Assembly (NCBI GenBank): GCA_029066805.1
Contig: JAIEFT010000022.1
Span: 1-37,291 of the forward strand
Reading direction: 5' to 3'
Source: Clostridiales bacterium
GTDB taxonomy: Bacteria; Bacillota; Clostridia; Christensenellales; Pumilibacteraceae
Length of the DNA: 37,291 nucleotides
Positions within the stretch are counted from its first letter, which is position 1. Every line of letters begins with the position of its first letter. Under the pieces are notes generated by a model, which was given only the letters and a program-made list of their open reading frames with translations, did no database searches and was not told where the DNA came from. This document shows, in pieces, positions 8,905 through 21,201 of this stretch. The position numbers were made by a program, and so were the translations under genes.

Positions 8905-9864
8905 TTAAACCCGATTTTTGGATTTTACCGCGCCGTTATCGCACTTGTTTCCCCACGAATCGATAAGCTCGTCCTCTTTGTAAACGCAGATGATTTCGCA
9001 ATGATTGGCACACTTGCCGCACTCAAAGCCGCGCGTTTTAAATTCTATGTCCGCAGTTTCGAATGAGAACGGTTTTTCTTTTCCGCTCCTTCGCGCCAGC
9101 ACAGCAACGCCGAACGCACCCATAAGGTGTCCGTTCTCGTCAACGATAACCTCGCTGCCGACCGCGTCCTCAAACGCGCGCTTCACGCCCACGTTTTTGC
9201 TGACGCCGCCCTGAAAAACTATGGGCGCTTTTATCTTTTTGCCCTTGCCTATATTGTTAAGGTAGTTTGTAACGACCGCCTTGCACAAGCCTGCGATTAT
9301 GTCCTCTTTTTTATGCCCGATCTGCGCCTTGTGCACGAGGTCGCTTTCGGCAAAAACCGTGCACCTGGCGGCAATATTCGTAGGCTTTTTGGAAGTCAGC
9401 GCAAGCTCGCCGAAATCCTCGACCGACACGCCCAGCCTATGCGCCTGACTAGACAAAAACGATCCCGTGCCTGCCGCGCACAGCGTGTTCATCGCATAAT
9501 CGACTACAAAGCCGTTTTCGATGATAATGATTTTGGAATCCTGCCCGCCTATTTCGAAAATAGTGTTTACTTCGGGATGGATAGTAGTAGTGCCGATTGC
9601 GTGCGCCGTTATTTCGTTTTTAACCACGCAAGCGCCCGTCATAACGCCGATCAGCTTTCTGGCGCTTCCCGTCGTTCCCACAGAAACAATATCTGCGTCT
9701 TTTCCGACCAATTGACTTTCCAAGGCTTTCAGCAGTTTTTTAACCGCGCCGGTAGGATCGCCTTCCGTCCACAGATATTCCTTTGCGAGGATATTATTAT
9801 CGCCGTCGATTACGACGCCCTTGGTGGAAATAGAGCCTATGTCTATACCTAAATACGCTTTCAT
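8905..9864 (-). CDS. 2-hydroxyacyl-CoA dehydratase activase-like ATPase (BadF/HgdC family)
   Basis: This 319-residue protein is an ASKHA-fold ATPase of the BadF/BadG/HgdC family. It shows the phosphate-1 motif GIDIGSISTKG, then GTTGSARKL and the FEIGGQDSKI motif. C129 (LCAAGTGSF) and C168 (ARCTVFAESD) match the two cysteines that hold the [4Fe-4S] cluster at the HgdC dimer interface. The family couples ATP hydrolysis to injection of a low-potential electron into a partner iron-sulfur enzyme. A C-terminal extension carries further cysteines (CGKCANHC, CVYK, NKCDNG), as seen in fused or DUF2229-associated activases, and may hold another metal site. Its ATG overlaps the stop of the dehydratase-like gene by four bases. 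It is the last gene before the terminator. The physiological substrate cannot be read from the sequence. Confidence 0.92.
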   Translation of the reverse strand: MKAYLGIDIGSISTKGVVIDGDNNILAKEYLWTEGDPTGAVKKLLKALESQLVGKDADIVSVGTTGSARKLIGVMTGACVVKNEITAHAIGTTTIHPEVNTIFEIGGQDSKIIIIENGFVVDYAMNTLCAAGTGSFLSSQAHRLGVSVEDFGELALTSKKPTNIAARCTVFAESDLVHKAQIGHKKEDIIAGLCKAVVTNYLNNIGKGKKIKAPIVFQGGVSKNVGVKRAFEDAVGSEVIVDENGHLMGAFGVAVLARRSGKEKPFSFETADIEFKTRGFECGKCANHCEIICVYKEDELIDSWGNKCDNGAVKSKNRV

Positions 9865-10946
9865 ACCGCCTTACTCCTTTCGCTGAGCTTTCTGACTTCT
9901 ATCATATCATAAAACGCTTCGAGCCGCGTTTTTACGCCCGTTTCGCTCGTTTGCGAGTCGAAGCTGAAATGTAGAATAGGAATATTCAAATCCTCGCTCA
10001 CACGCTGCAAAATGGGCATTGCGTCGTTTTCCGGCATACACCCGAACGACTTGACCTGTATAACGCCGTCGCAGCCCGACCGAGCAAACTCGATTGCTTC
10101 CGCTATCGTGCTGTTTGCCGTCGCGCCTATATCGAACTTGACGTAGCTTTTGGCATAATCGCGCTTGCGCTTGTTTTCGTTATGAATAAGCGTGCACGAA
10201 AAATTCATTTTTCTGTAAACCTCCATACCGAACTTGGCGAGCTCCTTTTCCATAAAATGATTGGAAAACGGTTCTTGTACGGTATAGTAATCGCCCACAA
10301 ATCCTACCTTTATCGTTTCCTCGGGCTTGTCCACCTTGATGGCGTTTAACGCGTTCCAATACTCCTTGATAAGCCGCTTTACCGCTTTGCCGTCGGGCGC
10401 GGAGGCAAGCTTTGACAAGAACTCGTTATACGTTCTGTCAAACTCGCCGTCGTTTACCTCAAACCCGACGTTGCGGCGAATAAAGTCCTCAAACTTATCA
10501 AGCGCCTGCACTATTTTGGACGCCACAGGTAGCGCCGCAACCACCTTTACGATCGATACGTCGGGATTGATTATTTTAAAATGCTCCATTATGGACTTGG
10601 GTGAAGTCCACTTTATTTCCGACATGTTAAAGAACTCGAATTCATAGCCCATGTCTTGCAATATCTGTTTTTGAAGCTCGCCGTAATAATTCAGTCGGCA
10701 TTCGCCGTAAATCTGCAAAAGACAGTTTGCGCCCAGCTCCAAAACCTCTAGATACGTGCCTAAGCAGTACTTAAACGGCGCACAGACGTAATCGGGACTG
10801 TACTTGCTGCCCAGCTCGAGCGTTTTTTTGGTTATCGGCGGAGGAATGAGATAATTTACCTCAAACCCTTTTTCGAGAATATACCTAAATGCATATGCAT
10901 AGTTCCCTATGTGCGGGAAACAAACGATCCTATCCTTGTGATTCAT
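9861..10946 (-). CDS. 2-hydroxyacyl-CoA dehydratase D-component-like protein
   Basis: This 361-residue protein belongs to the 2-hydroxyacyl-CoA dehydratase / BcrB-HgdB-like superfamily. Cysteines occur at C9, in VCAPFKYC, in GANCLLQIYGEC and, in the C-terminal half, in RSGCDG and SFGCMPEND. These positions are typical of the cluster-binding sites of this fold. Its partner would be the activase encoded immediately downstream. The protein is one piece of what is a single large fused protein in some Clostridia. Known relatives include dehydratases of hydroxyacyl-CoA and the double-cubane cluster proteins, so the reaction could be a dehydration or another low-potential reduction. No CoA-transferase or CoA-ligase gene is nearby to point to a fermentation route. 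It is intact, soluble and in an operon. Confidence 0.88.
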   Translation of the reverse strand: MNHKDRIVCFPHIGNYAYAFRYILEKGFEVNYLIPPPITKKTLELGSKYSPDYVCAPFKYCLGTYLEVLELGANCLLQIYGECRLNYYGELQKQILQDMGYEFEFFNMSEIKWTSPKSIMEHFKIINPDVSIVKVVAALPVASKIVQALDKFEDFIRRNVGFEVNDGEFDRTYNEFLSKLASAPDGKAVKRLIKEYWNALNAIKVDKPEETIKVGFVGDYYTVQEPFSNHFMEKELAKFGMEVYRKMNFSCTLIHNENKRKRDYAKSYVKFDIGATANSTIAEAIEFARSGCDGVIQVKSFGCMPENDAMPILQRVSEDLNIPILHFSFDSQTSETGVKTRLEAFYDMIEVRKLSERSKAV

Positions 10947-10957
10947 AAGCCCCTCCG

Positions 10958-11890
10958 TCAGTCGTAACTCTGTTGTTGCTCTGCTTGCTTTTTCAGCTCG
11001 ATAATATCAACAAAACTCTCTAAACGCGTTTCCATACCGGCAGTGCCGAACTGTGCGTCTACCGTCAAGGCGATCATCGGCTTTTCGGTGTACTTACGTA
11101 TAAGCAGCTCGTCCATCATACTGTCCGTGCCGCACGGAAACGCCGTTACCAATATTATACCGTCAACCTTATCCTTCATCAGCTCTACCGCGCCAACAAG
11201 ATGACGGTTGTACGGCCACTGCATTGTTATTGACACGTCGAGCGATGCGCGAACGCATTCCCGCTCGTCTACGTAATCCGCGATTATCGGCTCGCAGCCC
11301 ATCGCTTTGACGGCGTTAATTATCGGCTCGCCTATGTATTTATCTCCTACGCAATACGAGTGCGCAACAATAAGAATTTTTGTCTTGTTTGAGCTTTCGA
11401 GCACGGCGTTTTGCTTTTGCTCGCGAAGCATATCAAAGTTCATCTGCGCCTGCTTAGCCATTATATACGCATATTTGATTTGCGAACGCTTGACGCCAAG
11501 GAATTTGCCCATTTTAAAAACCGCCTTGCGTTCGCGATAAACCTTTCTGTCGTAAATATCGTAATACAAAAGCTTGACGTTTCTGTCGCGAAACGTCGTG
11601 TTCACAATATCGGGCAGAGCCCAAAATTTAGTGCACATCTCATACTTCATCCAGTACTTTTGCCGCGGCACGAATATGTAATCGCACTTGCCTATAAGCC
11701 ACTCGATATGTCCGAGCATAAGCTTAGACGGCAGACAGGCTTCGTCGATCGCAAGATTTGAACCGTTTGTAACGACTTGCTTGTCGGTTTCGGGGCTGAC
11801 AATATAATCAATGCCTATCTCGTCGAAAAACGTCGTCCAAAATTTATGATGCTTATAATATAAAAGCGCTCTCGGTATTCCTATCTTCAT
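10958..11890 (-). CDS. activase-associated 2-hydroxyacyl-CoA dehydratase-like protein (DUF2229 type)
   Basis: This 310-residue protein starts MKIGIPRALLYYKHHKFW, the typical opening of the DUF2229 family linked to acyl-CoA dehydratase activases. Conserved cysteines lie in DEACLPSK, WLIGKCDY, YEMCTKF, AHSYCVGD and AFPCGTDSMM. The ending, VDAQFGTAGMETRLESFVDI, closely echoes the end of the neighbouring 361-residue protein, which suggests that the two are distant paralogues forming a heterodimer-like pair. The gap to the next gene is 11 bases and the gap to degV is 3 bases. The conserved cysteines make an iron-sulfur role likely, but the substrate is unknown. Confidence 0.88.
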   Translation of the reverse strand: MKIGIPRALLYYKHHKFWTTFFDEIGIDYIVSPETDKQVVTNGSNLAIDEACLPSKLMLGHIEWLIGKCDYIFVPRQKYWMKYEMCTKFWALPDIVNTTFRDRNVKLLYYDIYDRKVYRERKAVFKMGKFLGVKRSQIKYAYIMAKQAQMNFDMLREQKQNAVLESSNKTKILIVAHSYCVGDKYIGEPIINAVKAMGCEPIIADYVDERECVRASLDVSITMQWPYNRHLVGAVELMKDKVDGIILVTAFPCGTDSMMDELLIRKYTEKPMIALTVDAQFGTAGMETRLESFVDIIELKKQAEQQQSYD

Positions 11891-11893
11891 ATT

Positions 11894-12739
11894 TTACTTT
11901 GCAAAGAATGCAACCGCTATTGCATTCGGTCCTACGTGCGTGCCTATCGTACTGCCTATGATATACGAAGGTATATATTCCGTTTTGCCCTTCCAAAGAT
12001 GTTCGCTGTCTTTAAGATACTTTTGCAAATAGTCGTCCGATAAACCCGAATACGCAAGCGCGTACGGCATATCAAAGTCAATGCCTCCGCATTTTTCAAC
12101 AAGCTGATTTAATAGATTGTTGCTCTTTTTTGACCCCATCGCCTTGCCCAATAATTTAATTTCACCTTTAACAACGGAAATAACGGGTTTTATGGAAAGT
12201 ATTTCGCCCGCTATCGCCGCAACGGACGAAATACGCCCGCCTTTACGCAGATACTTTAAAGTATCCAACACTGCAAGCAATTGAATTTTGCTCTTTTTTA
12301 CGTCAAGCTCCTTTGCTATGTCGGCAGCGGACTTGCCTTCCCGTACCAGCCGTAAAGCGTATTGCAGCAATATTCTCTCGCCTATGCTCGCTTCGATGCT
12401 GTCCACTACATGAACCTTGCCCGCAAACTTTTTTGCCGCTTTCACCGCGCCGGAATATGTGCCCGACAGCTTAGAGGAAATAGTAATAGCTATTACGTCG
12501 CTGCCGTCTGCGGTCAGCTGCTTAAAGCTTTCCTCCCAGCTGTATTCGTTGATCTGGCTTGTTTGCGGCAGTTCGGCGCTTTCTATCAGCTTTTCAAAAA
12601 ATTCCCTGTGAGATAAGTCTATGCCGTCCGAATACTCCTCGTCGCCGAAACGCACCTTCAACGGAATCAAAGATATGCCCAATTCTTCCGCCTCGTTTTT
12701 TTCCACGTCGGAAGCCGAGTCCACTATAATTTTAATCAT
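11894..12739 (-). CDS. DegV family fatty-acid-binding protein
   Basis: This 281-residue protein has the DegV signatures: DSASDVEKNEAEELGI at the N-terminus, VRFGDEEYSDG, PQTSQINEY, AITISSKLSGTYSGA, VVDSIEASIGE and LDTLKYLRKGGRIS. DegV proteins bind a fatty acid between two lobes and, as FakB, present it to a fatty-acid kinase. No fakA-like kinase gene is in the window. The gene overlaps the end of marR by eight bases and lies three bases before the DUF2229-type gene. It is therefore co-transcribed with the regulator and the dehydratase-like trio, which links acyl-chain handling with acyl-CoA chemistry. Confidence 0.92.
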   Translation of the reverse strand: MIKIIVDSASDVEKNEAEELGISLIPLKVRFGDEEYSDGIDLSHREFFEKLIESAELPQTSQINEYSWEESFKQLTADGSDVIAITISSKLSGTYSGAVKAAKKFAGKVHVVDSIEASIGERILLQYALRLVREGKSAADIAKELDVKKSKIQLLAVLDTLKYLRKGGRISSVAAIAGEILSIKPVISVVKGEIKLLGKAMGSKKSNNLLNQLVEKCGGIDFDMPYALAYSGLSDDYLQKYLKDSEHLWKGKTEYIPSYIIGSTIGTHVGPNAIAVAFFAK

Positions 12740-13181
12740 TATTTTTTACCAGGTCCTTATAATAGGTTTTTAGATTTTCGACTATCGTCCCAAGCGATTT
12801 GTAAAAGAATATTCTTTCGTCCGCGGTAAAATCCACGCTGCCCGCCGCAACGGCTTTGTCCGCCCTTTCGGAAATATCAGAGGCAATTTCTTTACCTCTG
12901 TCTGTCAATACTATAACGGCGTTGCGGCCGTTAGCGTCATATTCGGCATAACCGTTATCCTGCATAATTTTAAGCGCACGCGAAATCGCCGCCTTATCTT
13001 CCAGCGTCAGCTCAACAAGCGCTTTAGCCGTAAGCCCTTGCGGGTTTTTATATAGATAGTAAAGACACATAACATGAATCGGCTTTAACCCAAACTTCTC
13101 TATCTCGAAAGTCTTGATCTTCTGCACCAGCTTGTTCAGCGCCAGAATGGAAACCGTAAAATCAACGAATAAATCTTCCAT
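12732..13181 (-). CDS. MarR family transcriptional regulator, first gene of the operon
   Basis: About 149 residues with a winged-helix MarR domain: a recognition region around LTAKALVELTLEDKAAISRA and a wing at YAEYDANGRNAVIVLTDRGKEIA. The start is taken as the ATG at 13181, five bases after AAAAGG; a GTG two codons earlier (13187) is possible. Two matching palindromes flank its promoter, so it very likely represses its own operon. The linkage to a fatty-acid-binding DegV protein recalls FabT-type lipid regulators, but the ligand is not known. The stop codon lies inside degV. Confidence 0.9.
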   Translation of the reverse strand: MEDLFVDFTVSILALNKLVQKIKTFEIEKFGLKPIHVMCLYYLYKNPQGLTAKALVELTLEDKAAISRALKIMQDNGYAEYDANGRNAVIVLTDRGKEIASDISERADKAVAAGSVDFTADERIFFYKSLGTIVENLKTYYKDLVKNND

Positions 13182-13190
13182 AATCACCTT

Positions 13191-13317: not shown

Positions 13318-13412
13318 TCGCCCACAAGATTGCTCGCGAGGACGCAACACACTGCCTAATTTGCATGAATAATAAAACCCCCACTTTCGTGGGGAATTTA
13401 CGTTCAATGTAC
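13318..13412. repeat. composite intergenic repeat E1 (degenerate)
   Basis: This is the outermost member of a family of related intergenic elements (E1-E5). It contains an ACAAGATTG plus GC-hairpin motif (13325 onward), a stretch resembling E2 next to the Cs of the hairpin, the terminator hairpin, and an inverted copy of the tail motif (AATTTACGTTCAATGTAC). The remaining bases, 13413-13607, hold no gene or structure that I can support. Confidence 0.55.
13378..13394 (-). terminator. terminator after the restriction endonuclease gene
   Basis: A six-to-seven-base stem (CCCCAC with GTGGGG) with a four-base loop, followed on the minus strand by TTTTATTATT. It lies about 210 bases beyond the stop codon. 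Its core is nearly identical to the terminator at 16060-16077. Confidence 0.8.
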
Positions 13413-13607
13413 AAAATCTAATTTTTCAAAAAGCTAACCAGTCGACGAGTAATCGTGTTACATTCCATTTTTATCAAACGTACACGTCATTGTTCACCTC
13501 TTCCTGCCTGCGCCGTTTTTGTAAACAATCCCCATATTTGTTAAATCATCAAATAATATTTCCGCGAAAATTCACAGGCTTTGCGATGTAACCAAAATTT
13601 GATAGGC

Positions 13608-14279
13608 TTAAATTTCTAAAGTAGTATGATAATAGTTTCGGAAATTCGTCTTTAATTTCTCCAGCCAATCATTCGCATTATTTTCACCACGATACATTTT
13701 TTGAGTTTCATACACTGCTTTCAAAAAATCTTCTTTAGAGGAAAAAACTGAAGGAAGCCCGTTCTTAAAAGAAGAGCTAGGGCGAATGTTGTATATAACA
13801 TTCCTTTTTACTTGCGTATTTAATGGATAGCGTTTGCCTCTCCCTGCAATTTCCCATATCTTTTTCAGCCATAATTTTTTTATGGTAATATCGCCATCAG
13901 CCATTGTATATCCAAATATAAGATAATCGGCATTAAGCCTATACGGTTTTTCCGCCACGGATGAAACATATGATTCATAATTTGCTATATCAAATGCCGG
14001 CGATGCATTATAATTGAAAGCTTTTACCTCCAACATATTATCTTTAGGATTTGATTCCGACAAATAAAAATCAGGGAATTCTTGTGTATTGGTCGGTTCG
14101 CTCTCATAGATATCATTATCGAGAAACCATTGTTGCAACCAGCTTTGTAAACTATTTCCTACAGTATCTGTTGTTTTCATTGTGACTGTTGTATCGCCCA
14201 AACTAAAAACAATCCTACCCACCTGATTGATAACTGTTGATTTCAGTAGTGTGAAAATTTCTTGTGCTGTTTTTTCCAT
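13608..14279 (-). CDS. type II restriction endonuclease (NgoBV/NlaIV-like)
   Basis: This 223-residue protein has a PD-(D/E)XK nuclease core: P69-D70, then E84-V-K86 in LEVKAF. Length and gene order match those of a small type II enzyme encoded right after its methyltransferase. The overall sequence recalls the NgoBV/NlaIV type, which cuts GGNNCC; this is recall from family resemblance and was not checked. AAGGAG lies eight bases before the ATG. The 65-base gap to the methyltransferase stop suggests a shared transcript, with the methyltransferase made first, which would protect the host. The gene is clearly more AT-rich than the flanking metabolic operons, consistent with horizontal gain. Confidence 0.8.
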   Translation of the reverse strand: MEKTAQEIFTLLKSTVINQVGRIVFSLGDTTVTMKTTDTVGNSLQSWLQQWFLDNDIYESEPTNTQEFPDFYLSESNPKDNMLEVKAFNYNASPAFDIANYESYVSSVAEKPYRLNADYLIFGYTMADGDITIKKLWLKKIWEIAGRGKRYPLNTQVKRNVIYNIRPSSSFKNGLPSVFSSKEDFLKAVYETQKMYRGENNANDWLEKLKTNFRNYYHTTLEI

Positions 14280-14344
14280 ATGTATATCTCCTTTGTAAAG
14301 AATAAAATTACCGTCGAGCCGACTAATGTGATTTATTACTATAA

Positions 14345-15673
14345 TTAGTTATCTTTTATGTAGCACTCTAAAAGTCGAGTAGCGACGGCTTTAATAACAG
14401 GAACAACAACTGTGTTCCCCAGCAAGTCGAATGCTTTTGCTAACCCAACATTATTATTTTCAAACATTGATAGGTTATAACTGTCAGGATATCCGAATAA
14501 ACGCAGCCCCTCACGTAGCGTAAGTCGCCGTATTCCATCGCCGTCCACTACGCCAAGTTTTGCCACATCCATTGCGACCAATGTGGGCGCAACCGCATTA
14601 TTATCGAGTATTTTGCTAAACTCAAAGCTTAATTTGCCCGCAACTATATTATATCCTTTTGGCTTAGTAGTATCTTGTACTCTTTCTTCTATATAGCCGC
14701 CGTTAATCTCTTTTTGCACTAATTTCTTAGGATGTTCCAATACTAGATATCCCTTATTGACCAAATCATCTAATATTTCTTTTAAGTTATCGCTTTTAAA
14801 GAATGTGGAAATTTGCTCTGCCGTCAGTGGCATCCCATCCATCCATTCTATCCCTATTTCATCTGCCCAATGATGCTTTCTTCTTTCCTTGAAGAGCTTT
14901 TCGATCAATTGGGTTTGTTCTGACGTAATCTCCCCTTTAAGACCTATAGTCCAACTATGGATATTGTTATCCCCACCGCGTTTGTCCTTAATAGATTTTC
15001 CATATAACTCTTGTGGCCGATAATGGCGCAACAAACATTTGGTAAAGTGACTTTCTATGCATGGTTTTCCGTGTTCAATAATCTCCCCAAATAACTTAGT
15101 CTTTTCGGGGAAATCGTCCATATAGACTTTAGTTTTTAATGTGCCAACTATATATACTCTCAATCTTGATTGCGCAACGCCAAATTTCTGCGAATCCAAT
15201 AATCTCCATGTGACACTATATCCAAGCCCATTTAATTTACGAAGAATCGTCGTTAATGTCCGCCCAATCGGATCGGCAGTCTTTTCACGATCATGTAATA
15301 TTAGTCCTTCCACATTTTCTAAAATAAAACCATATGGTTGTTTTTCTCGCAAAATTCTTTCTATCTCAAAAAATAGTGTGCCGCGTGTATCTAAAAAACC
15401 ATGACCTTTCCCTGCCGTACTGAACGCCTGACAAGGGAATCCGCCAAGTAGGATATCAAAGTCAGGAATTGTCGCCGCATCAATATCCCGTATATCTCCA
15501 CGTATGATTTCCTGATTAAAATTCGCATTTAAGGCTTGGATTGCGGACGGTTTTATTTCGGAAGTAAGTACACATTGGGTTTTGAACCCCAACTCGGATG
15601 CTGCTTGCTCAAAACCAATTCTTGTACCGCCCATGCCGGCAAATAAATCTATGAATTTAAGCAGCTTTTTCAT
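14345..15673 (-). CDS. DNA cytosine-5 methyltransferase of a type II R-M system
   Basis: This 442-residue C5-cytosine methyltransferase has its motifs in the standard order: I FIDLFAGMGGTRIGFE (SAM binding), IV GGFPCQAFS with catalytic C81, VI ENVEGL, VIII QSRLRVYIVG, IX RRLTLREGLRLFGYP and X GLAKAFDLLGNTVVVPV. The target-recognition region between VIII and IX is long (about residues 190-385). The product adds a methyl group to cytosine C5 in the site cut by the nuclease encoded downstream. The start is the ATG at 15673. The nearest ribosome-site-like GGAG lies about 14 bases away, so translation may be weak. The gene has its own promoter and is AT-rich like the rest of the accessory region. 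Confidence 0.95.
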   Translation of the reverse strand: MKKLLKFIDLFAGMGGTRIGFEQAASELGFKTQCVLTSEIKPSAIQALNANFNQEIIRGDIRDIDAATIPDFDILLGGFPCQAFSTAGKGHGFLDTRGTLFFEIERILREKQPYGFILENVEGLILHDREKTADPIGRTLTTILRKLNGLGYSVTWRLLDSQKFGVAQSRLRVYIVGTLKTKVYMDDFPEKTKLFGEIIEHGKPCIESHFTKCLLRHYRPQELYGKSIKDKRGGDNNIHSWTIGLKGEITSEQTQLIEKLFKERRKHHWADEIGIEWMDGMPLTAEQISTFFKSDNLKEILDDLVNKGYLVLEHPKKLVQKEINGGYIEERVQDTTKPKGYNIVAGKLSFEFSKILDNNAVAPTLVAMDVAKLGVVDGDGIRRLTLREGLRLFGYPDSYNLSMFENNNVGLAKAFDLLGNTVVVPVIKAVATRLLECYIKDN

Positions 15674-15704
15674 ATGCTTTTATTTAATCTCCATAATATT
15701 TTCT

Positions 15705-15733
15705 ATTATAACATATATCTGGCTTTTTGTAAA
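15705..15733 (-). promoter_or_regulatory. promoter of the restriction-modification operon
   Basis: TTTACA (15733-15728), a 17-base spacer ending in TGT (extended -10) and TATAAT (15710-15705) on the minus strand, 31 bases before the methyltransferase start. Confidence 0.8.
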
Positions 15734-15860
15734 TGAAATGCGTCCTAATTCCAGCATTTCGACATGCCAAACAGTTAATTCCGACCAGTCGAGAGTTTCT
15801 GCACAATTGCGTTAGGAGTTTGTAGCACAAATAATAATTTGTGGTTTTTGCAATAAAAAA

Positions 15861-15891
15861 TGACCGCCCAAAAAATGCAAAAAGTCGGTCA
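15861..15891 (-). terminator. hairpin and T-run upstream of the R-M promoter
   Basis: A TGACCG/CGGTCA stem with a 19-base loop is followed on the minus strand by TTTTTTATT. It would stop transcription arriving from the metallopeptidase side. The loop is long, so efficiency is uncertain. Confidence 0.5.
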
Positions 15892-15921
15892 ATAAGCAAA
15901 CTACTTATAGATTCACTGCCT

Positions 15922-16110
15922 TGGTACACCCAACAAGATTGTGCGCGGACTACGCGCCGAAGAACATTAACTCTTGATTATATTGCGCTTTCTTTTTGTA
16001 TGCATTGATTTGTTTATTCTATTCTACGGCACACTACTCCATTTGCTGGAATAGTAAAACCCCCACTTTCGTGGGGGCTTGGTATACCACATTGAACATA
16101 AATTGAACTT
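15922..16110. repeat. composite intergenic repeat E2 with a 19-base tRNA-Arg 3'-end copy
   Basis: Bases 15922-15940 match the 3' end of tRNA-Arg (21125-21143) at 18 of 19 positions. A GC hairpin, a segment shared with E4 (CTACGGCACACTACTCCATT, from 16024), a terminator hairpin and the tail GGTATACCACATTGAACATA (16081 onward) follow. E2 and E4 are diverged copies of one element of about 190 bases or more. Confidence 0.7.
16060..16077 (-). terminator. terminator of the metallopeptidase gene
   Basis: A perfect seven-base stem (CCCCCAC/GTGGGGG) with a TTTC loop, followed on the minus strand by TTTTACTATT. It is embedded in repeat E2. Confidence 0.85.
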
Positions 16111-16177
16111 AATGGATCATCTAAATAGTAATAGAATGTACTCAATCTAAAACGAATATTCTACGCTAAATTGAAAT

Positions 16178-17818
16178 TTACCGTCCTACAACGCTTAATA
16201 AATCTTTGGGGGCAACGTCTTCAAAACGAGCAAATAAATCTTCTCCCCATTCACGCCAAAGATTATATTGGCTCTGTCCAAACACATTTGTAAACAAACT
16301 CGGTTGTTTGAATACTTTGACTGCGTTATCCCAACCAAACTTATCTACCAAATAATATACGAAAGAGGAATGACGAAAATAATATGTTGTATTATCGTCG
16401 TTCTTTAAATGGTATCCTTCTTTTACCGACCAATATGCTTCCGCATCTTTCCATGCGTGTATATCGTCATTTACGGTTTGTTGCGCTTGTTGGTAGATAT
16501 GCTCAAAATCAAATCCATGTTCCACCGAATAAATAATATCTTCTTGTATTCCGGCATAACCAAACTTACGGTATTCTAACGAATAGGTATATGCCGTATA
16601 TTCTGCAACGCCTTCGCTCAGCCACCGATAAACATAGTAATCGCCATTCAAAAAATAACCGGAAACATGCTCAACGGCGTGTGTAAACTCGTGTGCAAAC
16701 TCTATCAGATTAGAGAGATATATGCGATGGTTAATATAGTCAGTGTAACCGCCTACCTTATCTACATAGTATACGTCCTCGTCAACGAAGTATTGATATT
16801 TGGGTTGCAGATTTTCAAAAGTATAATCAAACGCTCCGAGAATGTTATCTACCGTGACGGACATCTGCTCAAAAAGTTTTTTTTGCGATGGATAAGAAAA
16901 ATCAGACCATTCGATACTAAGCTCACTAATACCACTAGAAAAACCAACTTTATAAGGATTATCGTAATCTTTTTTTATATGCCAAACGCCCCAATCCGTT
17001 TCTATCAATAATGGGGTGGCAACCGTAAAAGGTATATAACGAATTGAATACTGCGCGGGTGCAATCGTTTGCAAAATCCCAAGTGCTTTGAGATATCTGT
17101 TTTTTAAATCGGTAAAAAGATTATTAAAATCTTTAAATGCCGTTCCTGAAATTTCTTCACCAACAGCAAGCAGATTATTTTCAAATAAACTCTCTATATC
17201 GATTCCTTCATCATATAGCCAATTTACAAATGAAACAGCTACTGTTTTCGCATTTTTTACAGTTTCCTTGTCAGAGAAATTAGAAAAAAAGAGCGGCGCT
17301 TCCATATCAAGAAGATACGGCTTTTCGGTTAACAACGATACAACTTTCTTATCTTCCGTTTCAAGAGCTTTGCCGTTTATTTCAGCGCATAAGCGTTCAC
17401 TCACGCCCCATAACAAGCCGTAATTTAATGCCCCACTGCCAAGCGATTGCAATGTAGTATGTAAAAATACCGTAGTATCGTTTGTACCGAGATAAATACG
17501 ACCTCTTTCGTTTTCAGCACGGCTTGAAAACCCCTTACCTATAATATATATCAACGGTATATCGGGCGCCAGCTTACTGAAAGCCACTTCTGCAAAAGAT
17601 ACTATCGCTTGCTTTTCTTTATCCGAATACTGGTCGCTTATGTATAATTTGTTCTCTCCTATAGTAAATTCCTTTCCCGAAAGAGAATAAACAATTTCCG
17701 AATCGGGTTCGGAAAAGCTCAATTCAAAATGTTCATATTTATATGTCAGCGTAGCACAAGCAGACAATACTGAAATGCATAATATTAAAAACGCTAAAAG
17801 TGTAGTATGTTTTTTCAT
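16178..17818 (-). CDS. lipoprotein zinc metallopeptidase (HEXXH, gluzincin-like)
   Basis: This 546-residue protein has a type II signal peptide with lipobox LSAC (Cys about 21), so it should be anchored on the outer face of the membrane. Zinc-peptidase residues are H376-E377-x2-H380 (HEFTH), followed by WLSEGVAEY, whose E402 sits where M1-like gluzincins place the third zinc ligand. The segment before it (YYVDKVGGYTDYINHRIYLS) resembles the edge strand of such domains. Residues 25-370 are not recognised and may bind substrate or the cell wall. It stands alone between a strong promoter and a terminator, inside the AT-rich region. The substrate is unknown; protein or peptide hydrolysis at the cell surface is the likely role. 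Confidence 0.85.
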   Translation of the reverse strand: MKKHTTLLAFLILCISVLSACATLTYKYEHFELSFSEPDSEIVYSLSGKEFTIGENKLYISDQYSDKEKQAIVSFAEVAFSKLAPDIPLIYIIGKGFSSRAENERGRIYLGTNDTTVFLHTTLQSLGSGALNYGLLWGVSERLCAEINGKALETEDKKVVSLLTEKPYLLDMEAPLFFSNFSDKETVKNAKTVAVSFVNWLYDEGIDIESLFENNLLAVGEEISGTAFKDFNNLFTDLKNRYLKALGILQTIAPAQYSIRYIPFTVATPLLIETDWGVWHIKKDYDNPYKVGFSSGISELSIEWSDFSYPSQKKLFEQMSVTVDNILGAFDYTFENLQPKYQYFVDEDVYYVDKVGGYTDYINHRIYLSNLIEFAHEFTHAVEHVSGYFLNGDYYVYRWLSEGVAEYTAYTYSLEYRKFGYAGIQEDIIYSVEHGFDFEHIYQQAQQTVNDDIHAWKDAEAYWSVKEGYHLKNDDNTTYYFRHSSFVYYLVDKFGWDNAVKVFKQPSLFTNVFGQSQYNLWREWGEDLFARFEDVAPKDLLSVVGR

Positions 17819-17849
17819 TTACGCCTCTAAAATATTGCTTATCGTAAAA

Positions 17850-17878
17850 ATTATAACATATCAACACCATAATTGCAA
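17850..17878 (-). promoter_or_regulatory. promoter of the metallopeptidase gene
   Basis: TTGCAA (17878-17873), a 17-base spacer ending in TGT and TATAAT (17855-17850) on the minus strand, with AGAGG five bases before the ATG. Confidence 0.8.
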
Positions 17879-17893
17879 GCGAAAAATACAAAT

Positions 17894-18025
17894 GGCACTA
17901 TGGCGGGCGCTTGATATATAACAAGCGCGCCGCTGCGCGGCGCACTCAAAAAACCTAAATCAAACTTGATTGAAGTTCAATTTAGGCTTAGAGTGATACA
18001 CCGCGACGAACGTAAATTGACACGA
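17894..18025. repeat. composite intergenic repeat E3
   Basis: It contains the block GGCACTATGGCGGGCGCTTG, an ATATATAACAAG link and a GCGC hairpin (to 17943), then an AT-rich terminator hairpin and the tail starting GATACACCGCG (17995). The first two parts match E5 beside the tRNA closely. In tRNA sense the sequence just before the hairpin, GGTGTATCACTCTAAGCC, matches the last bases of tRNA-Arg plus its downstream flank. Confidence 0.75.
17952..17989 (-). terminator. terminator after the AraC-GNAT gene
   Basis: Inverted arms CCTAAATTGAACT and AGTTTGATTTAGG, pairing with one or two mismatches around a short loop, are followed on the minus strand by TTTTTTGAG. The terminator lies about 50 bases after the stop codon, within repeat E3. 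Confidence 0.75.
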
Positions 18026-18041
18026 AAGCAGTCCTTACAAA

Positions 18042-18989
18042 TTATTTATTCAATACATAATAGTCGTAATACTTTGTTCCGTCATGACCGATAAGCGGCT
18101 CTTCAGACTTAGTAAAGCCTAACGCAATCAATGCCGTAATACGCTCCGTAGCGGACATGATTGCCTTTGTTGCTACTATTGCGCAGCCGAACAAATCAAA
18201 CGAAGGCATCGCTATTATTGATAGTATGCTTTGAATTTCAGACGCCTTTTCATAATCGCTACGCAAATCGAGCCTAAGTAGCCCACAGTTTGTAAAAAAG
18301 TCTTTTTCGTCACGACGAAACTCTTCTATTGTGCCTATAACTTCATTTGTTGCTTTATCAATAATAGCAAATCGCACAAACCAGCCGTTTTTATAAGCGT
18401 CCTTCCAGAAAACCAATGCGTCGCGCATACGCTCGGGTGTGGTGTAATGAAAATCGTCACCGTGGCAATTATCGCTGTTAAAAAACGGAACGGCTTTTAT
18501 ATCGCTGTAAACCTTTAATAAATCGTCAGCATCCCCGTCGTCCACCAAACGCAAAATATATCTGTCGTTTTGCAGCGTAGGGCATGTCTTGTAAATATCC
18601 ATAAAATCTCCTGTCAGTGTTTTGTTACACTTAATATCGTAAGGATTAAAAAGCGTTATGGGTTGCGGGCTTATGGCATACTGCTTCGGATTGCACCCGA
18701 ACTCGCGCGCAAAAGCGCGAGTGTATCCGTACGCACTGCCGAACCCCAAATCTAATGCTACGTCCAACACCGTCACCTTCTCGTCGCGCAATCTAAGCGC
18801 CGAGTTGCTTAGCCTCAGCCGCCGAATATAGTCCGACGGCGTTACGCCCAACAGCGAAACAAATATGCGCCTCGCGTACCACGGCGAAAACATAGCGACT
18901 TTTGCTAAATCGTCGAGCGTTATATTCTCCGATAAATGCGCCTTTATGTAGTCCTGCATTCGCTGGACGGCTTCGATTTGTTCCTTCAA
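18042..18989 (-). CDS. AraC-type regulator fused to a GNAT acetyltransferase-like domain
   Basis: The protein has 315 residues. Residues about 5-105 form an AraC/XylS double helix-turn-helix of the short MarA/SoxS type (ENITLDDLAKVAMFSPWYARRIF, then VTVLDVALDLGFGSAYGYTRAF). Residues about 135-315 look like a GNAT N-acetyltransferase domain (YILRLVDDGDADDLLKVY, then RFAIIDKATNEVIGTIEEF, a typical strand pair). Such a fusion could combine gene control with acetylation, or use the GNAT fold as a sensor. The start is a TTG at 18989, six bases after GAGG; no ATG gives a better ribosome site. It is a single gene between two repeat elements. Confidence 0.85.
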   Translation of the reverse strand: MKEQIEAVQRMQDYIKAHLSENITLDDLAKVAMFSPWYARRIFVSLLGVTPSDYIRRLRLSNSALRLRDEKVTVLDVALDLGFGSAYGYTRAFAREFGCNPKQYAISPQPITLFNPYDIKCNKTLTGDFMDIYKTCPTLQNDRYILRLVDDGDADDLLKVYSDIKAVPFFNSDNCHGDDFHYTTPERMRDALVFWKDAYKNGWFVRFAIIDKATNEVIGTIEEFRRDEKDFFTNCGLLRLDLRSDYEKASEIQSILSIIAMPSFDLFGCAIVATKAIMSATERITALIALGFTKSEEPLIGHDGTKYYDYYVLNK

Positions 18990-19013
18990 CGCTTACCTCA
19001 TAAGTGTACATAT

Positions 19014-19044
19014 ATTATATCACGTTAACGTAAAAAAATCTCAA
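19014..19044 (-). promoter_or_regulatory. possible promoter of the AraC-GNAT gene
   Basis: TATAAT (19019-19014) is clear on the minus strand. The best -35, TTGAGA (19044-19039), is 19 bases away, which is longer than ideal. Confidence 0.5.
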
Positions 19045-19171
19045 CTAATTTTGCTTTATTTTGCGCTAATACGATAAGTTTTACAGCTTATAAAAATATG
19101 GAAGCCATATCATAAAATCCGCCGGCGTTTTTTTGATTATATTATAGATAATAAATCGAGCCAATTTAAAT

Positions 19172-19474
19172 GGTACTATGGCGGGTGCAAGATATATAAC
19201 AAGTGCGCCGCTACGCTTGCCGTTTTGCAAGCATAGCGCAAACGACAAGATTGCCCGCGAAAACCGCGGGCGACCTTTGCGCTACGCGCAAGCGGTTAGC
19301 GAACTGCGTGCCGAATGACTTAACTGTTTCTATTATTTTCAAGTCTTTTTGTTGTTTACTATTCGCATTGCCTATCTACGGCACGCTACTCCATTTGCAA
19401 GTATACCAATAGAAATGCCACCGCAATGCAGTGGCATTTCTATTGGTACACCATACTGAACGTAAATTGAACGA
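19172..19474. repeat. composite intergenic repeat E4 (largest copy)
   Basis: It combines all parts of the family: the GGTACTATGGCGGGTGC block (19172), a GC hairpin, ACAAGATTG plus a GC hairpin resembling the tRNA T-arm (19244 onward), the segment shared with E2 (19376-19400), a perfect 18-base inverted repeat (TACCAATAGAAATGCCAC and its complement, about 19403-19446) and the tail GGTACACCATACTGAACGTA (19445 onward). It fills the long gap between the AraC-GNAT gene and its upstream neighbour. No gene is visible in it. Confidence 0.7.
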
Positions 19475-19493
19475 AATATATGTTAGTTTTATT

Positions 19494-19925
19494 TTATAAT
19501 ATCGCCAGCTCTTTATCAGTAAATAATTTAGTTGCTTTTAATATTTTTTTCAAACACTGTTTGAAATTTTCTTTTGCCACGCTTGTTAATGCCTCTTTTG
19601 CATAAATAAAACCTATTACATTCTCAATTTGCTTTCGTATATCATCAATACTGCATTGTTCATAAAAATTTCTGTCCACATTGTATATATAATAACCCGT
19701 AAACACCGTCATTTTATTTATAAAATCTTTATACTCTCTCAAATACAATTGTAGTATGTCCCACATTTCTTTTTTATTAGACAATGTAAGGGCTTTATAT
19801 GCCGTATCGCTTTTTTTACAAGCAGCTCCTGCAATATGGACAGCTTCTGCGGCTTTCTTTATTGAGTCGATGATAATTTCCATTCTCTTATCGTTTGATT
19901 GTTTATCGCTTTTTAAGTATTCCAT
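19494..19925 (-). CDS. hypothetical protein of the XRE/ATPase module
   Basis: This 143-residue protein is AT-rich in its DNA, lysine-rich, and appears all-helical with no signal peptide or membrane segment. I do not recognise a family. GGAG lies eight bases before the ATG. It begins 35 bases after the mini FtsK-like ATPase stop and so forms the third gene of that operon. Its conserved partners would be the best guide to function. Confidence 0.8.
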   Translation of the reverse strand: MEYLKSDKQSNDKRMEIIIDSIKKAAEAVHIAGAACKKSDTAYKALTLSNKKEMWDILQLYLREYKDFINKMTVFTGYYIYNVDRNFYEQCSIDDIRKQIENVIGFIYAKEALTSVAKENFKQCLKKILKATKLFTDKELAIL

Positions 19926-19960
19926 TCTTTTAACTCCATTATTAGACTATTATGTTTGAA

Positions 19961-20476
19961 TTAGAATTTTCTTGTGTCAATATGAATTATCTCGCTTGAA
20001 TTTTTAATCCGAATAATTGCTTCATATTCGGGCACACATATTTTTTTGCCTAAAATTTGTTTTGCGTGTTGCGAATCGCTAACGTGCATACAAATCTTCG
20101 TCGGGAATAATACATCTATTTTATCAAACAATGACTGTTTCATATATTGTGTAGCTAAAATTATGCGAATATTTCTTCGTGCAATATTATACAAATCATA
20201 AATTGCACTATCATTGCTTTTGTGAGGCGGCAACAAGCACTCAAATCCATCTATGATAACTATCTCACCATCATAGACTTCTGGTATATCTGCAAATGTC
20301 GTATATCCTGCATAATCATTTCTTTTAGGATTTACAATACAAATGCCACTTTTGGGCATACTCGATATTAGACGTTGCAATAAATATGTTTTTCCGCTTC
20401 CTGTTGTACCAGATATAAGTATATTTCCAGAATTCTCAAATGTCGTTTTCACGCCACAACCAAAATTTAATTCCAT
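19961..20476 (-). CDS. minimal FtsK/HerA-like P-loop ATPase
   Basis: About 171 residues from the ATG at 20476, which has GGGGTGA as a ribosome site; a GTG nine bases further upstream overlaps the XRE stop and is the alternative. Walker A is ISGTTGSGKTYLLQ and Walker B is EIVIIDGFECL. The following IRIILATQYMKQS and MHVSDSQHAKQILG stretches recall FtsK/SpoIIIE-type DNA pumps, where a related serine-rich segment follows the core. It is far shorter than FtsK or the conjugative coupling ATPases, with no membrane part and no DNA-reading gamma domain. No relaxase or integrase is nearby. It may be a trimmed DNA-handling ATPase of a small mobile or defence module. Confidence 0.75.
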   Translation of the reverse strand: MELNFGCGVKTTFENSGNILISGTTGSGKTYLLQRLISSMPKSGICIVNPKRNDYAGYTTFADIPEVYDGEIVIIDGFECLLPPHKSNDSAIYDLYNIARRNIRIILATQYMKQSLFDKIDVLFPTKICMHVSDSQHAKQILGKKICVPEYEAIIRIKNSSEIIHIDTRKF

Positions 20477-20481
20477 ACTTC

Positions 20482-20919
20482 TCACCCCAAAATTTGTTTA
20501 ATATCAAATCCAAGTTTTGTTGCAACACCACGAATATATCCATAAACTTCCGCACAATACTCGGTCGGTAACACTTTATATAATTTTACAAAATTTACAA
20601 ATCGCTCATCTTGCAAAAGCTCTGAAAATACGGTTGATAAAGTAGACATACAACAATTTGATGTATTTGCTGTTTTGAGTGATGTAGGCTCGTCCGTCAA
20701 GCAAAGCAAGTAGTCAGCTGACACATTAAAAAAGCGGGCAAGGGCAGTTATTGAATCGGCTGACGGATTTGTTTCATAAATAGTTCCGTCCTTGCGTTTT
20801 TTGCCCTTTACCCAAGACTGTATTGTCGCATTAGGCAATCCTACGATTGTTTCTAATTGGTATGCGTTCATTTGACGGTCGTGCATTAGATTTAATATTC
20901 TTCGAGTTGTTTCTGTCAT
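20482..20919 (-). CDS. XRE-type helix-turn-helix regulator
   Basis: The protein has 145 residues. Residues about 5-70 form an XRE (Cro/CI) DNA-binding domain (MNAYQLETIVGLPNATIQSW, then NPSADSITALARFFNVSADYLL). The C-terminal half is a short domain of unknown role. It is the first gene of a three-gene operon; its stop codon overlaps the possible start of the ATPase. A perfect palindrome directly downstream of its -10 box is the obvious self-regulation site. The arrangement of a phage-like repressor ahead of a small ATPase resembles the control cassette of a mobile element. Confidence 0.9.
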   Translation of the reverse strand: MTETTRRILNLMHDRQMNAYQLETIVGLPNATIQSWVKGKKRKDGTIYETNPSADSITALARFFNVSADYLLCLTDEPTSLKTANTSNCCMSTLSTVFSELLQDERFVNFVKLYKVLPTEYCAEVYGYIRGVATKLGFDIKQILG

Positions 20920-20948
20920 TTAATACTCCATTTAATTGACAATTGCCC

Positions 20949-20969
20949 ATATCAAATTGATTTTGATAT
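20949..20969. promoter_or_regulatory. operator of the XRE operon
   Basis: A perfect palindrome with eight-base arms ATATCAAA and TTTGATAT and a five-base centre. It overlaps the -10 box by two bases and covers the likely transcription start. Confidence 0.8.
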
Positions 20970-20996
20970 TATATCACATAATTAAATTTTTTTCAA
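20968..20996 (-). promoter_or_regulatory. promoter of the XRE operon
   Basis: TTGAAA (20996-20991), a 17-base spacer ending in TGA and TATAAT (20973-20968) on the minus strand. Confidence 0.8.
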
Positions 20997-21024
20997 GCGT
21001 ATACTATACGCAAAATATTACTTT

Positions 21025-21124
21025 GGCACTATGGCGGGTGCTTGATATATAACAAGTGCGCCGCTACGCGGCGCAAGCAAAAAGCCTAAACTAAACTTGA
21101 TTATAGTTCAATTTAGGCTTAGAG
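21025..21124. repeat. composite intergenic repeat E5, adjacent to tRNA-Arg
   Basis: It shares the GGCACTATGGCGGGTGCTTG block, ATATATAACAAG and the GCGCCGC/GCGGCGC hairpin (21058-21074) with E3 and E4. It shares its AT-rich terminator hairpin with E3. It runs directly into the 3' end of the tRNA. Confidence 0.8.
21079..21121 (-). terminator. terminator of tRNA-Arg
   Basis: Inverted arms AAGCCTAAA and TTTAGGCTT, extended inward with two mismatches, are followed on the minus strand by TTTTTGC. It begins four bases after the tRNA CCA end. Confidence 0.85.
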
Positions 21125-21201
21125 TGGTACACCCGACAAGATTCGAACTTGCGACCCTCAGAATCGGAATCTGATACTCTATCCAGCTGAGCTACGGGTG
21201 C
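21125..21201 (-). tRNA. tRNA-Arg (anticodon CCG)
   Basis: A 77-base cloverleaf. Acceptor GCACCCG pairs with CGGGTGT (a G-U pair at 1-72). The D-arm is GCTCAGCTGGATAGAGT, the anticodon stem is TCAGA/TCTGA with loop TTCCGAT (anticodon CCG, reading CGG), the T-arm has GTTCGAATC, and CCA is encoded. The sequence resembles known tRNA-Arg(CCG). Parts of its 3' end recur in the intergenic repeats downstream, as expected if the locus has served as an insertion target. Confidence 0.95.

Follow-up and report, generated by a model that had tools for sequence, protein, structure and literature searches.

A tRNA-Arg(CCG) gene in the 1.9-Mb draft genome of a Clostridiales bacterium is followed by a 7.8-kb tandem array of small gene cassettes, whose organization and probable origin are described here. 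The window, i.e., the whole stretch analysed, is the entire contig G000:C15 of 37,291 nucleotides; G and L numbers are handles for genomes and fetched loci, respectively, and G000 is the genome of the window. All array features lie on the minus strand, in the same direction as the tRNA gene (21125..21201; ARAGORN and Rfam tRNA), which anchors the array and provides its 3′ end as the insertion site. Each unit runs in the order of CCA, either an L site or a structured H1–H4 unit, an origin-like hairpin (core), genes, an R end, and a copy of the tRNA tail. Five composite separators, E5 to E1 from the tRNA outward, had been regarded in the original prediction as members of one repeat family; instead, they are mosaics of four parts, L, the 195-nt H1–H4 unit (H unit), the core and R. 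While E5 consists of L and core and E3 of L and core after an R end, E4 is made of R, H1–H4, half a tRNA tail and core, E2 of R, an H unit without H3, a tRNA tail and the left end of another element class, and E1 of a decayed H1/H4 and a tRNA tail.

Cassette 1 begins immediately after CCA with an L site (21080..21124) containing the hairpin/terminator CTCTAAGCCTAAATTGAACT, followed by core 1 in E5 (21025..21069), a cargo of an XRE-type regulator, an AAA/FtsK-like ATPase with a partial mad8 match (E 2e-14) and a 143-aa protein (19494..20919), and an R end, TTCAATTTACGTTCAGTAT joined to GGTGTACCA (19444..19471). An H unit comes next in E4: its H1 terminator hairpin (19395..19451; inverted repeat 19401–19451) extends into the tRNA-tail copy, and its H2–H3–H4 part (19249..19394) is recognized by the covariance model R1 at 131 bits (E 1e-27). 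The H unit is closed by AATCTTGTCG (19243..19252). This is one half, the left, of a tRNA-Arg tail copy that has been split in two; the right half, GGTGTATCA, is found at E3. Cassette 2 runs from core 2 (19168..19216) through an AraC-type regulator with a C-terminal extension (18042..18989) to a variant R end, GTCAATTTACGTTCGTCGC joined to the right half GGTGTATCA (17994..18022). Cassette 3 is composed of an L site (17951..17993), core 3 in E3 (17890..17938), a gene for a 546-aa protein with an HExxH motif, read by eye, and no Pfam match (16178..17818), and an R end, TTCAATTTATGTTCAATGT joined to GGTATACCA (16080..16107). Then, in E2, a second H unit with H3 deleted (15937..16042; R1, 37.9 bits, E 2e-6) and a tRNA-Arg tail copy (15922..15940) precede an element of a different class (13608..15921), which has a left end containing ATAAGTAGTTTGCTTAT and carries an anti-phage type II restriction–modification (R-M) pair, a C5 methylase (14345–15673) and an NgoBV-type endonuclease (13608–14279). 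The distal end of the array is E1 (13321..13394) with the tail copy AATCTTGTGGG (13321–13331), and MarR and DegV genes come next.

The repeated parts are well defined. The L hairpin CTCTAAGCCTAAATTGAACT directly follows CCA or a tRNA-tail copy (21105–21124 and 17974–17993), the core motif CTTGTTATATATCWWGCRCCCGCCATAGTRCC is found at 21025–21056, 19172–19203 and 17894–17925, and the R motif, TTCAATTTAYGTTC followed by GGTRTACCA, at 19444–19471 and 16080–16107, with the variant at 17994–18022. Several features read in these repeats were borne out: the tail copy in E2 matches the tRNA 3′ end at 18 of 19 positions by reading of the sequence (15922–15940 against 21125–21143), E3 has the terminator downstream of the tRNA (110 nt shared with E5 at 90% identity; 17893–18002 against 21024–21133), and GGTGTAYCA-type ends are present as GGTGTACCA, GGTATACCA and, at the end of E3, GGTGTATCA. 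Two tail pieces, AATCTTGTCG and AATCTTGTGGG, are additional to these. The genes between the repeats are, as had been stated, AT-rich and unrelated, with a GC content of 33–45% against 49–51% in the flanks and with unrelated protein families. The array was also stated to lack an integrase, and no recombinase is found among its open reading frames (ORFs; 13608–20919); no tyrosine integrase is encoded in the array, and the three PF00589 matches of G000 are on other contigs.

A first sample of 31 genomes comprised 19 members of the genus and 12 others. A 146-nt query from E3 (L and core) matches, at the sensitivity used, 17 of the 31, namely, 17 of the 19 genus members and none of the 12 others. 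This distribution, together with the R1 scores, indicates that the repeats are not due to chance. The later genus set contains 20 genomes, each from a different species, so that comparisons across it are between species and not between strains; the genomes are drafts, mostly in many contigs, and arrays are frequently located at contig ends.

The H1–H4 unit behind tRNA genes

Behind a tRNA, the H unit of ~195 nt starts with the H1 terminator hairpin and continues through H2, H3, and H4, after which comes a direct copy (about 6–20 nt) of that tRNA's own tail; H1 is often lengthened by an inverted copy of the tail. Fetched loci contain 72 H-unit matches, 52 of which have a same-strand tRNA upstream, 34 of them at 170–235 nt (13 tRNA species). 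An even spread of the repeats away from accessory genes, which would have spoken against the original prediction, is therefore not observed; the parts are concentrated behind tRNA genes. Alignment A1 was made from the 34 H units after removal of L086 (a duplicate of L022) and the atypical L078, L107 and L138, leaving 30, and A2, the basis of R1 and of the pairing test, after removal of a further five (L106, L111, L117, L118, and L143), leaving 25. R1 covers the H2–H4 fold and was made without any window sequence. Pairing is found in 90.3% of cells in the 25 sequences, compared with 75.7% in shuffles and 32–46% when the structure is slid, figures that are somewhat favored by the structure having been drawn from the same sequences. 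As 18 pairs are changed on both sides, a number reached in none of 500 shuffles, the H unit covaries strongly.

Own-tail copies were evaluated in 68 tRNA loci, after 17 of 85 distinct loci with another tRNA close behind had been removed. In 36 of the 68 loci, the direct copy fits its own tRNA better than it fits 95% or more of the other tails, and the inverted copy does so in 29, although these are not genome-wide rates, the loci having largely been picked for carrying an H unit. At tRNA-Arg(CCG), the inverted copy is weak. R1 finds H units in 17 of the 20 genus genomes, with a maximum of 16 in one genome, and none in G001, G003, and G007. Outside the genus, an H unit was found under stricter filters in one other genome of an order-wide sample of 200 genomes (102 genera, two genus members included). 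Rfam has no family for the H unit: in six loci and the window stretch, only tRNA exceeds the gathering score. Tandem and often near-identical H units were observed behind tRNA-Leu, Trp, Ile, and Glu (L171 3600–4500, L121, L172, and L113).

Mean loop similarity is 0.629 between different tRNAs of the same genome, 0.622 between different tRNAs of different genomes, and 0.651 between the same tRNA of different genomes. Recent transposition of H units between tRNAs is unsupported, since the similarity within a genome equals the background; with loops near background similarity, H units rather look old and tied to their tRNA. Cassettes would insert within the direct copy of the H unit, as at the junction of AATCTTGTCG and GGTGTAYCA in the window; in the direct copy at tRNA-Ile of G009, GTCCACTCATT and CCTACCA stand with no gene between. 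It is conceivable, although rather improbable in our estimation, that the H unit is a tRNA-addressed landing platform, a folded single-stranded DNA or RNA guiding or permitting cassette insertion at its tRNA. The H unit raises the question of why a conserved fold behind at least 13 tRNA species retains copies of each tRNA's tail.

Elements with a large serine recombinase and a Rep protein

The R motif was searched for with up to two mismatches. It occurs at 63 sites in 19 of the 20 genus genomes and in 29 of the 200 genomes of the order sample, of which 27 come in addition to the two genus members (19 of the 102 genera are represented), while the reversed pattern gives no match in either set. 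Twenty regions around R motifs were inspected, 18 of them outside the genus, and five show the order of tRNA, L and R over 1.7–9.4 kb behind tRNA-Tyr, Ala, Val (two), and Ser. Three regions with the R motif, L183, L184, and L188, encode a large serine recombinase (LSR) of ~502 aa with resolvase, recombinase and zinc ribbon domains (PF00239, PF07508, PF13408), together with a REP_ORF2-G2P family protein of ~300 aa (Rep). HFH and YxxK motifs can be read from the sequence of the Rep, which has no match in PHROGs or NCBIfam. The core lies ~0.9 kb upstream of the Rep gene in L184, L188, and L204 and was not detected in L183. In L184, from another family of the order, the element is complete, with tRNA-Ala, L, LSR, rolling-circle Rep, core, cargo, and R. 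L204, found in the window's own genus (G006), has tRNA-Glu, an L-type hairpin, LSR, Rep, core, and an HKD+Snf2 defence-type cargo gene, with R not located, and L188 lacks its tRNA end as the contig starts there.

Relatives of the LSR are present in 79 of the 200 order genomes (E up to 1e-60), and full-length proteins with at least 70% identity in seven, G033, G043, G069, G141, G185, G196, and G212. All seven have the R motif, as against 29 of the 200 (hypergeometric 7e-7, at a threshold chosen after viewing the list), and in five of them R and that LSR share a contig and are less than 7 kb apart. Furthermore, among 19 LSR loci across the order, three of which (L223, L226, and L227) are L184, L188, and L183 again, a Rep gene is the neighbor in 16 and a tRNA (Ala, Tyr, Ser, Lys, Met, Arg, or Val) in 13, convergent in 13 out of 13; the association with tRNAs has a P of 1.5e-9 if a 10% chance of a tRNA is assumed. 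Within the genus, an LSR lies up to ~160 nt from the 3′ end of tRNA-Glu or Ser in seven of 20 regions around PF00239 matches, some of which were picked for their nearness to arrays.

These elements and the cassettes have end sequences in common. L arms differ from element to element, and the 14-mer AGCCTAAATTGAAC of the window L arm is identical at L235, an LSR+Rep element following the CCA of tRNA-Met in another family. R is shared with L183, L184, and L188, and the core with L184, L188, and L204.

Tyrosine integrases are another candidate. Successive phage- or integrative and conjugative element (ICE)-type islands with separate tyrosine integrases might have inserted at tRNA-Arg and decayed to end fragments; such enzymes are the known users of tRNA genes according to PMC4383910, all 20 genus genomes encode PF00589 proteins, one of which (in L017) belongs to an ICE-like element flanked by a tRNA-Ser tail and a cassette, and the R-M element class behind tRNA-Arg may be of the tyrosine-integrase sort. 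This explanation seems unlikely, as a single R motif serves several tRNAs and elements with the same ends carry an LSR. Moreover, G010, G014, G017, and G031 have one PF00589 match each, of ~367-aa XerS-like size in three and a 185-aa frame at a contig start in G010, yet 9–16 H units each, on which ground a tyrosine integrase was rejected as the common mover.

Movement of the cassettes and origin of the array

Cassettes and arrays with the same parts occur behind tRNA-Ser, Val, Ala, Tyr, and Ile in the genus, and further arrays of G000 follow tRNA-Ser(TGA) and tRNA-Val(CAC), the latter array including an AbiD gene. Nine cores in fetched loci are located ~80–620 nt behind several kinds of tRNA, the others being farther away or on stretches without a tRNA. 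An R motif follows within 6 kb after 21 of 40 core-like positions in these loci (10 of the 40 overlap another on the opposite strand due to the palindromic core); an ORF is between core and R in 20 and often nearly fills the gap. The exact core pattern had no match in viral contigs, and the records containing it (14 stretches) are metagenome-assembled genomes labeled uncultured Clostridia, Clostridiales, or uncultured bacterium, with Roseburia in two.

Cassette form alone would fit a chromosomal integron in which attC-like separators are used by an integron integrase acting at the tRNA: the cassettes mostly have one gene, the separators are palindromic, and they form arrays. By eye, L and R do not appear to fit the attC consensus with its R′ and R″ boxes. 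The integron integrase model TIGR02249 scores above its cut-off in none of the 20 genus genomes, on which ground this reading was rejected; it is regarded as very improbable.

Exchange of cassettes is suggested by their boundaries. Two homologous pairs were found among 26 cassette proteins, and the clear one (77% aa identity) is behind tRNA-Ser(TGA) in G001 and tRNA-Ala(GGC) in G015. Its DNA identity starts at GCGGCRCACTTG in the core and stops at GCTCC in R, after which the sequences part as GACA and ACCA, and the left neighbors are unlike, L type in one and an H unit in the other. A module order shared by all relatives, which would also have contradicted the original prediction, is likewise not observed: the sequence downstream of tRNA-Arg(CCG), readable in 18 of the 20 genus genomes, varies between species, with an H unit within ~350 nt in seven and other sequence in the rest. 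Old arrays without dedicated mobility, shuffled only by homologous recombination at core, R, and H sequences, would agree with the near-background similarity of H-unit loops and with the location of the window's MarR–DegV block elsewhere in relatives, with a break near E1. They would agree poorly with cassette boundaries that are sharp across species and tRNAs and with LSR+Rep elements having the same ends, and we hold this possibility to be quite remote.

We consider it likely that the cassettes following tRNA-Arg(CCG) in tandem are mobile but non-autonomous and came from small LSR/Rep integrative elements inserting at many tRNA 3′ ends. Source elements are found in several families of the order. 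A full element, complete in L184 and partial elsewhere, consists of tRNA CCA, ~5 nt, an L arm whose sequence is near A[AG]CCTAAAWCGAAC and which is part of a terminator hairpin, an LSR of ~500 aa convergent to the tRNA, a rolling-circle-type Rep of ~300 aa, core, cargo, and R (ATTCGTTTTAGGTT and CTCCACCA), while what remains in the window core cassettes is core, cargo, R, and either L or an H unit, LSR and Rep being absent. Since the array has no recombinase, what is claimed is derivation and mobilization in trans, and not membership among autonomous elements. The sequence comparisons suggest that an LSR able to use many tRNA genes moves the cassettes, and the best reading is that those without LSR and Rep would be mobilized in trans, in a manner resembling staphylococcal cassette chromosome (SCC) elements, with tRNA 3′ ends as the target instead.

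In the proposed mechanism, L and R would be the attachment half-sites on which the LSR acts and attB would be the tRNA tail, with a crossover probably within the last nine or so tRNA nucleotides. Serine recombinases require only very short core identity, so that one LSR could serve many tRNAs. Every insertion would restore CCA and leave the old tail downstream, and arrays would therefore grow. Rep may replicate or process excised circles at the core, which is probably its origin; the complementary strand of the core contains CTTGATA, as in the pC194-type origin. Such a role would explain why exchanged cassettes start at the core. Both earlier proposals, repeated insertion at the tRNA 3′ end and a cassette-like array, are supported and appear as two aspects of one process; in sum, the original observation is partly confirmed and its interpretation supported.

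Several points weigh against derivation from LSR/Rep elements. The window has neither LSR nor Rep, and LSRs located behind tRNAs in G000 (L217 and L218) have different L arms, so that no matching helper is identified in this genome. An LSR is present in three of the 20 R-motif regions, and the other 17 are without such an LSR on the stretch examined; likewise, 22 of the 29 R-motif genomes in the order sample have no close (70%) LSR. No tRNA stands beside an LSR in 13 of the 20 genus PF00239 regions, three of these 13 having no similar LSR at all. Only L184 is seen end to end from tRNA to R, and only one cassette pair across tRNAs is clean, identity in the second pair (tRNA-Tyr in G000 and a tRNA-less stretch of G008) starting left of the core. 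At the end of R, more than two bases agree with the local tRNA, so that the crossover position is imprecise. Tyrosine recombinases are encoded in all genus genomes, one in the element beside a core in L017, and no excised circle was observed in these draft genomes.

There are further elements around the array and its relatives. The R-M module is of a different element class that likewise uses this tRNA. In several species (L081, L084, L085, L087, L088, and L089), tRNA-Arg or a copy of its tail is followed by a left-end hairpin of the GTTCAGTTGGTCGATA type, with methylase-like genes, identified partly by reading, adjoining it in L081, L084, and L085; no PF00589 or PF00239 match is listed within 20 kb of the loci of this class. 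At 2923–7630 in L017 of G008, a tyrosine integrase gene and a gene that reads as VirB4-like come before a tRNA-Ser tail, which is displaced, and a cassette; the arrangement looks like the insertion of an ICE behind the tRNA, separating it from the cassette. A tmRNA call in L017, which overlaps the displaced tail and a core, was rejected as spurious. The block of g8905, DegV, and MarR (8905–13187 of the window) stands beside the tRNA-Arg array in G000. DegV lies up to ~5 kb from an XerS-like gene in four relatives (G004, G008, G012, and G015) and near tRNA-Trp in three (G005, G008, and G015), and because it is not beside tRNA-Arg in relatives, G000 was probably rearranged with a break near E1. 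Near the tRNA-Arg locus, a repetitive ORF of 3756 aa, lipoprotein-like by reading, is present in G012 (L088 3716–14986) and G004 (L089 5565–16835). Finally, a 367-aa XerS-like tyrosine recombinase of G000, below the XerS cut-off, adjoins a thrS-like gene identified by reading (L053 1057–2160), and most genus genomes have a match of about this size.

Comparison with known systems

Serine recombinases at tRNA genes are not new. According to PMC4471427, filamentous phages φRSM of Ralstonia integrate into tRNA-Ser by a serine recombinase through a 13-bp tRNA sequence, placed at the 5′ end in the text and at the 3′ end in a table. That enzyme is of the resolvase/invertase type, with one tRNA and a phage, whereas LSRs, many tRNAs, and cargo cassettes are found here. 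According to PMC10083194, multi-targeting LSRs can act on many attB sites, which share a short conserved core; the target motif quoted there is AT-rich, and the word "tRNA" is absent from the main text. Serine-recombinase integrative mobilizable elements of Firmicutes resemble the present ones in their single serine recombinase, in the very short direct repeats that bound them, and in having specific sites, while those reported in PMC5704250 disrupt dispensable genes. Islander (PMC4383910) takes only tyrosine recombinases as known to target tRNA genes (tDNAs) and requires an integrase per island; tDNA islands share with the array the insertion in a tRNA gene, the tRNA-tail copies, and the tandem arrangement. 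Like integron cassettes, the units are small and form ordered arrays from a fixed anchor; here, no integrase exceeds the cut-off, and the anchors are many tRNA genes. In the literature searched, which covered few subscription papers, no report was found of an LSR family using many tRNA genes with cassettes mobilized in trans. If correct, the present reading would place a serine-recombinase family at many tRNA genes, a niche ascribed to tyrosine integrases in PMC4383910. Uncultured Clostridia would then possess an integron-like reserve of accessory and defence genes that is spread over the genome, and one recombinase family for many sites would be of interest for genome engineering.

SCC elements insert at the 3′ end of a gene while keeping it intact, form tandem arrays with recombinase-less members, and carry R-M and defence cargo. 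The array resembles them in 3′-end insertion, tandem arrangement, members without a recombinase, and defence cargo, and SCC elements may be regarded as nearest in behavior. The recombinases belong to the same LSR family: those found here match the CcrB and CcrA models of NCBIfam at 95–141 bits, well below the cut-offs of 700 and 900, and are thus not counted as ccr members. The target also differs, being rlmH for SCC (for which no search was made here) and many tRNA 3′ ends for the present elements, which are smaller units and have a rolling-circle-type Rep as the neighbor gene.

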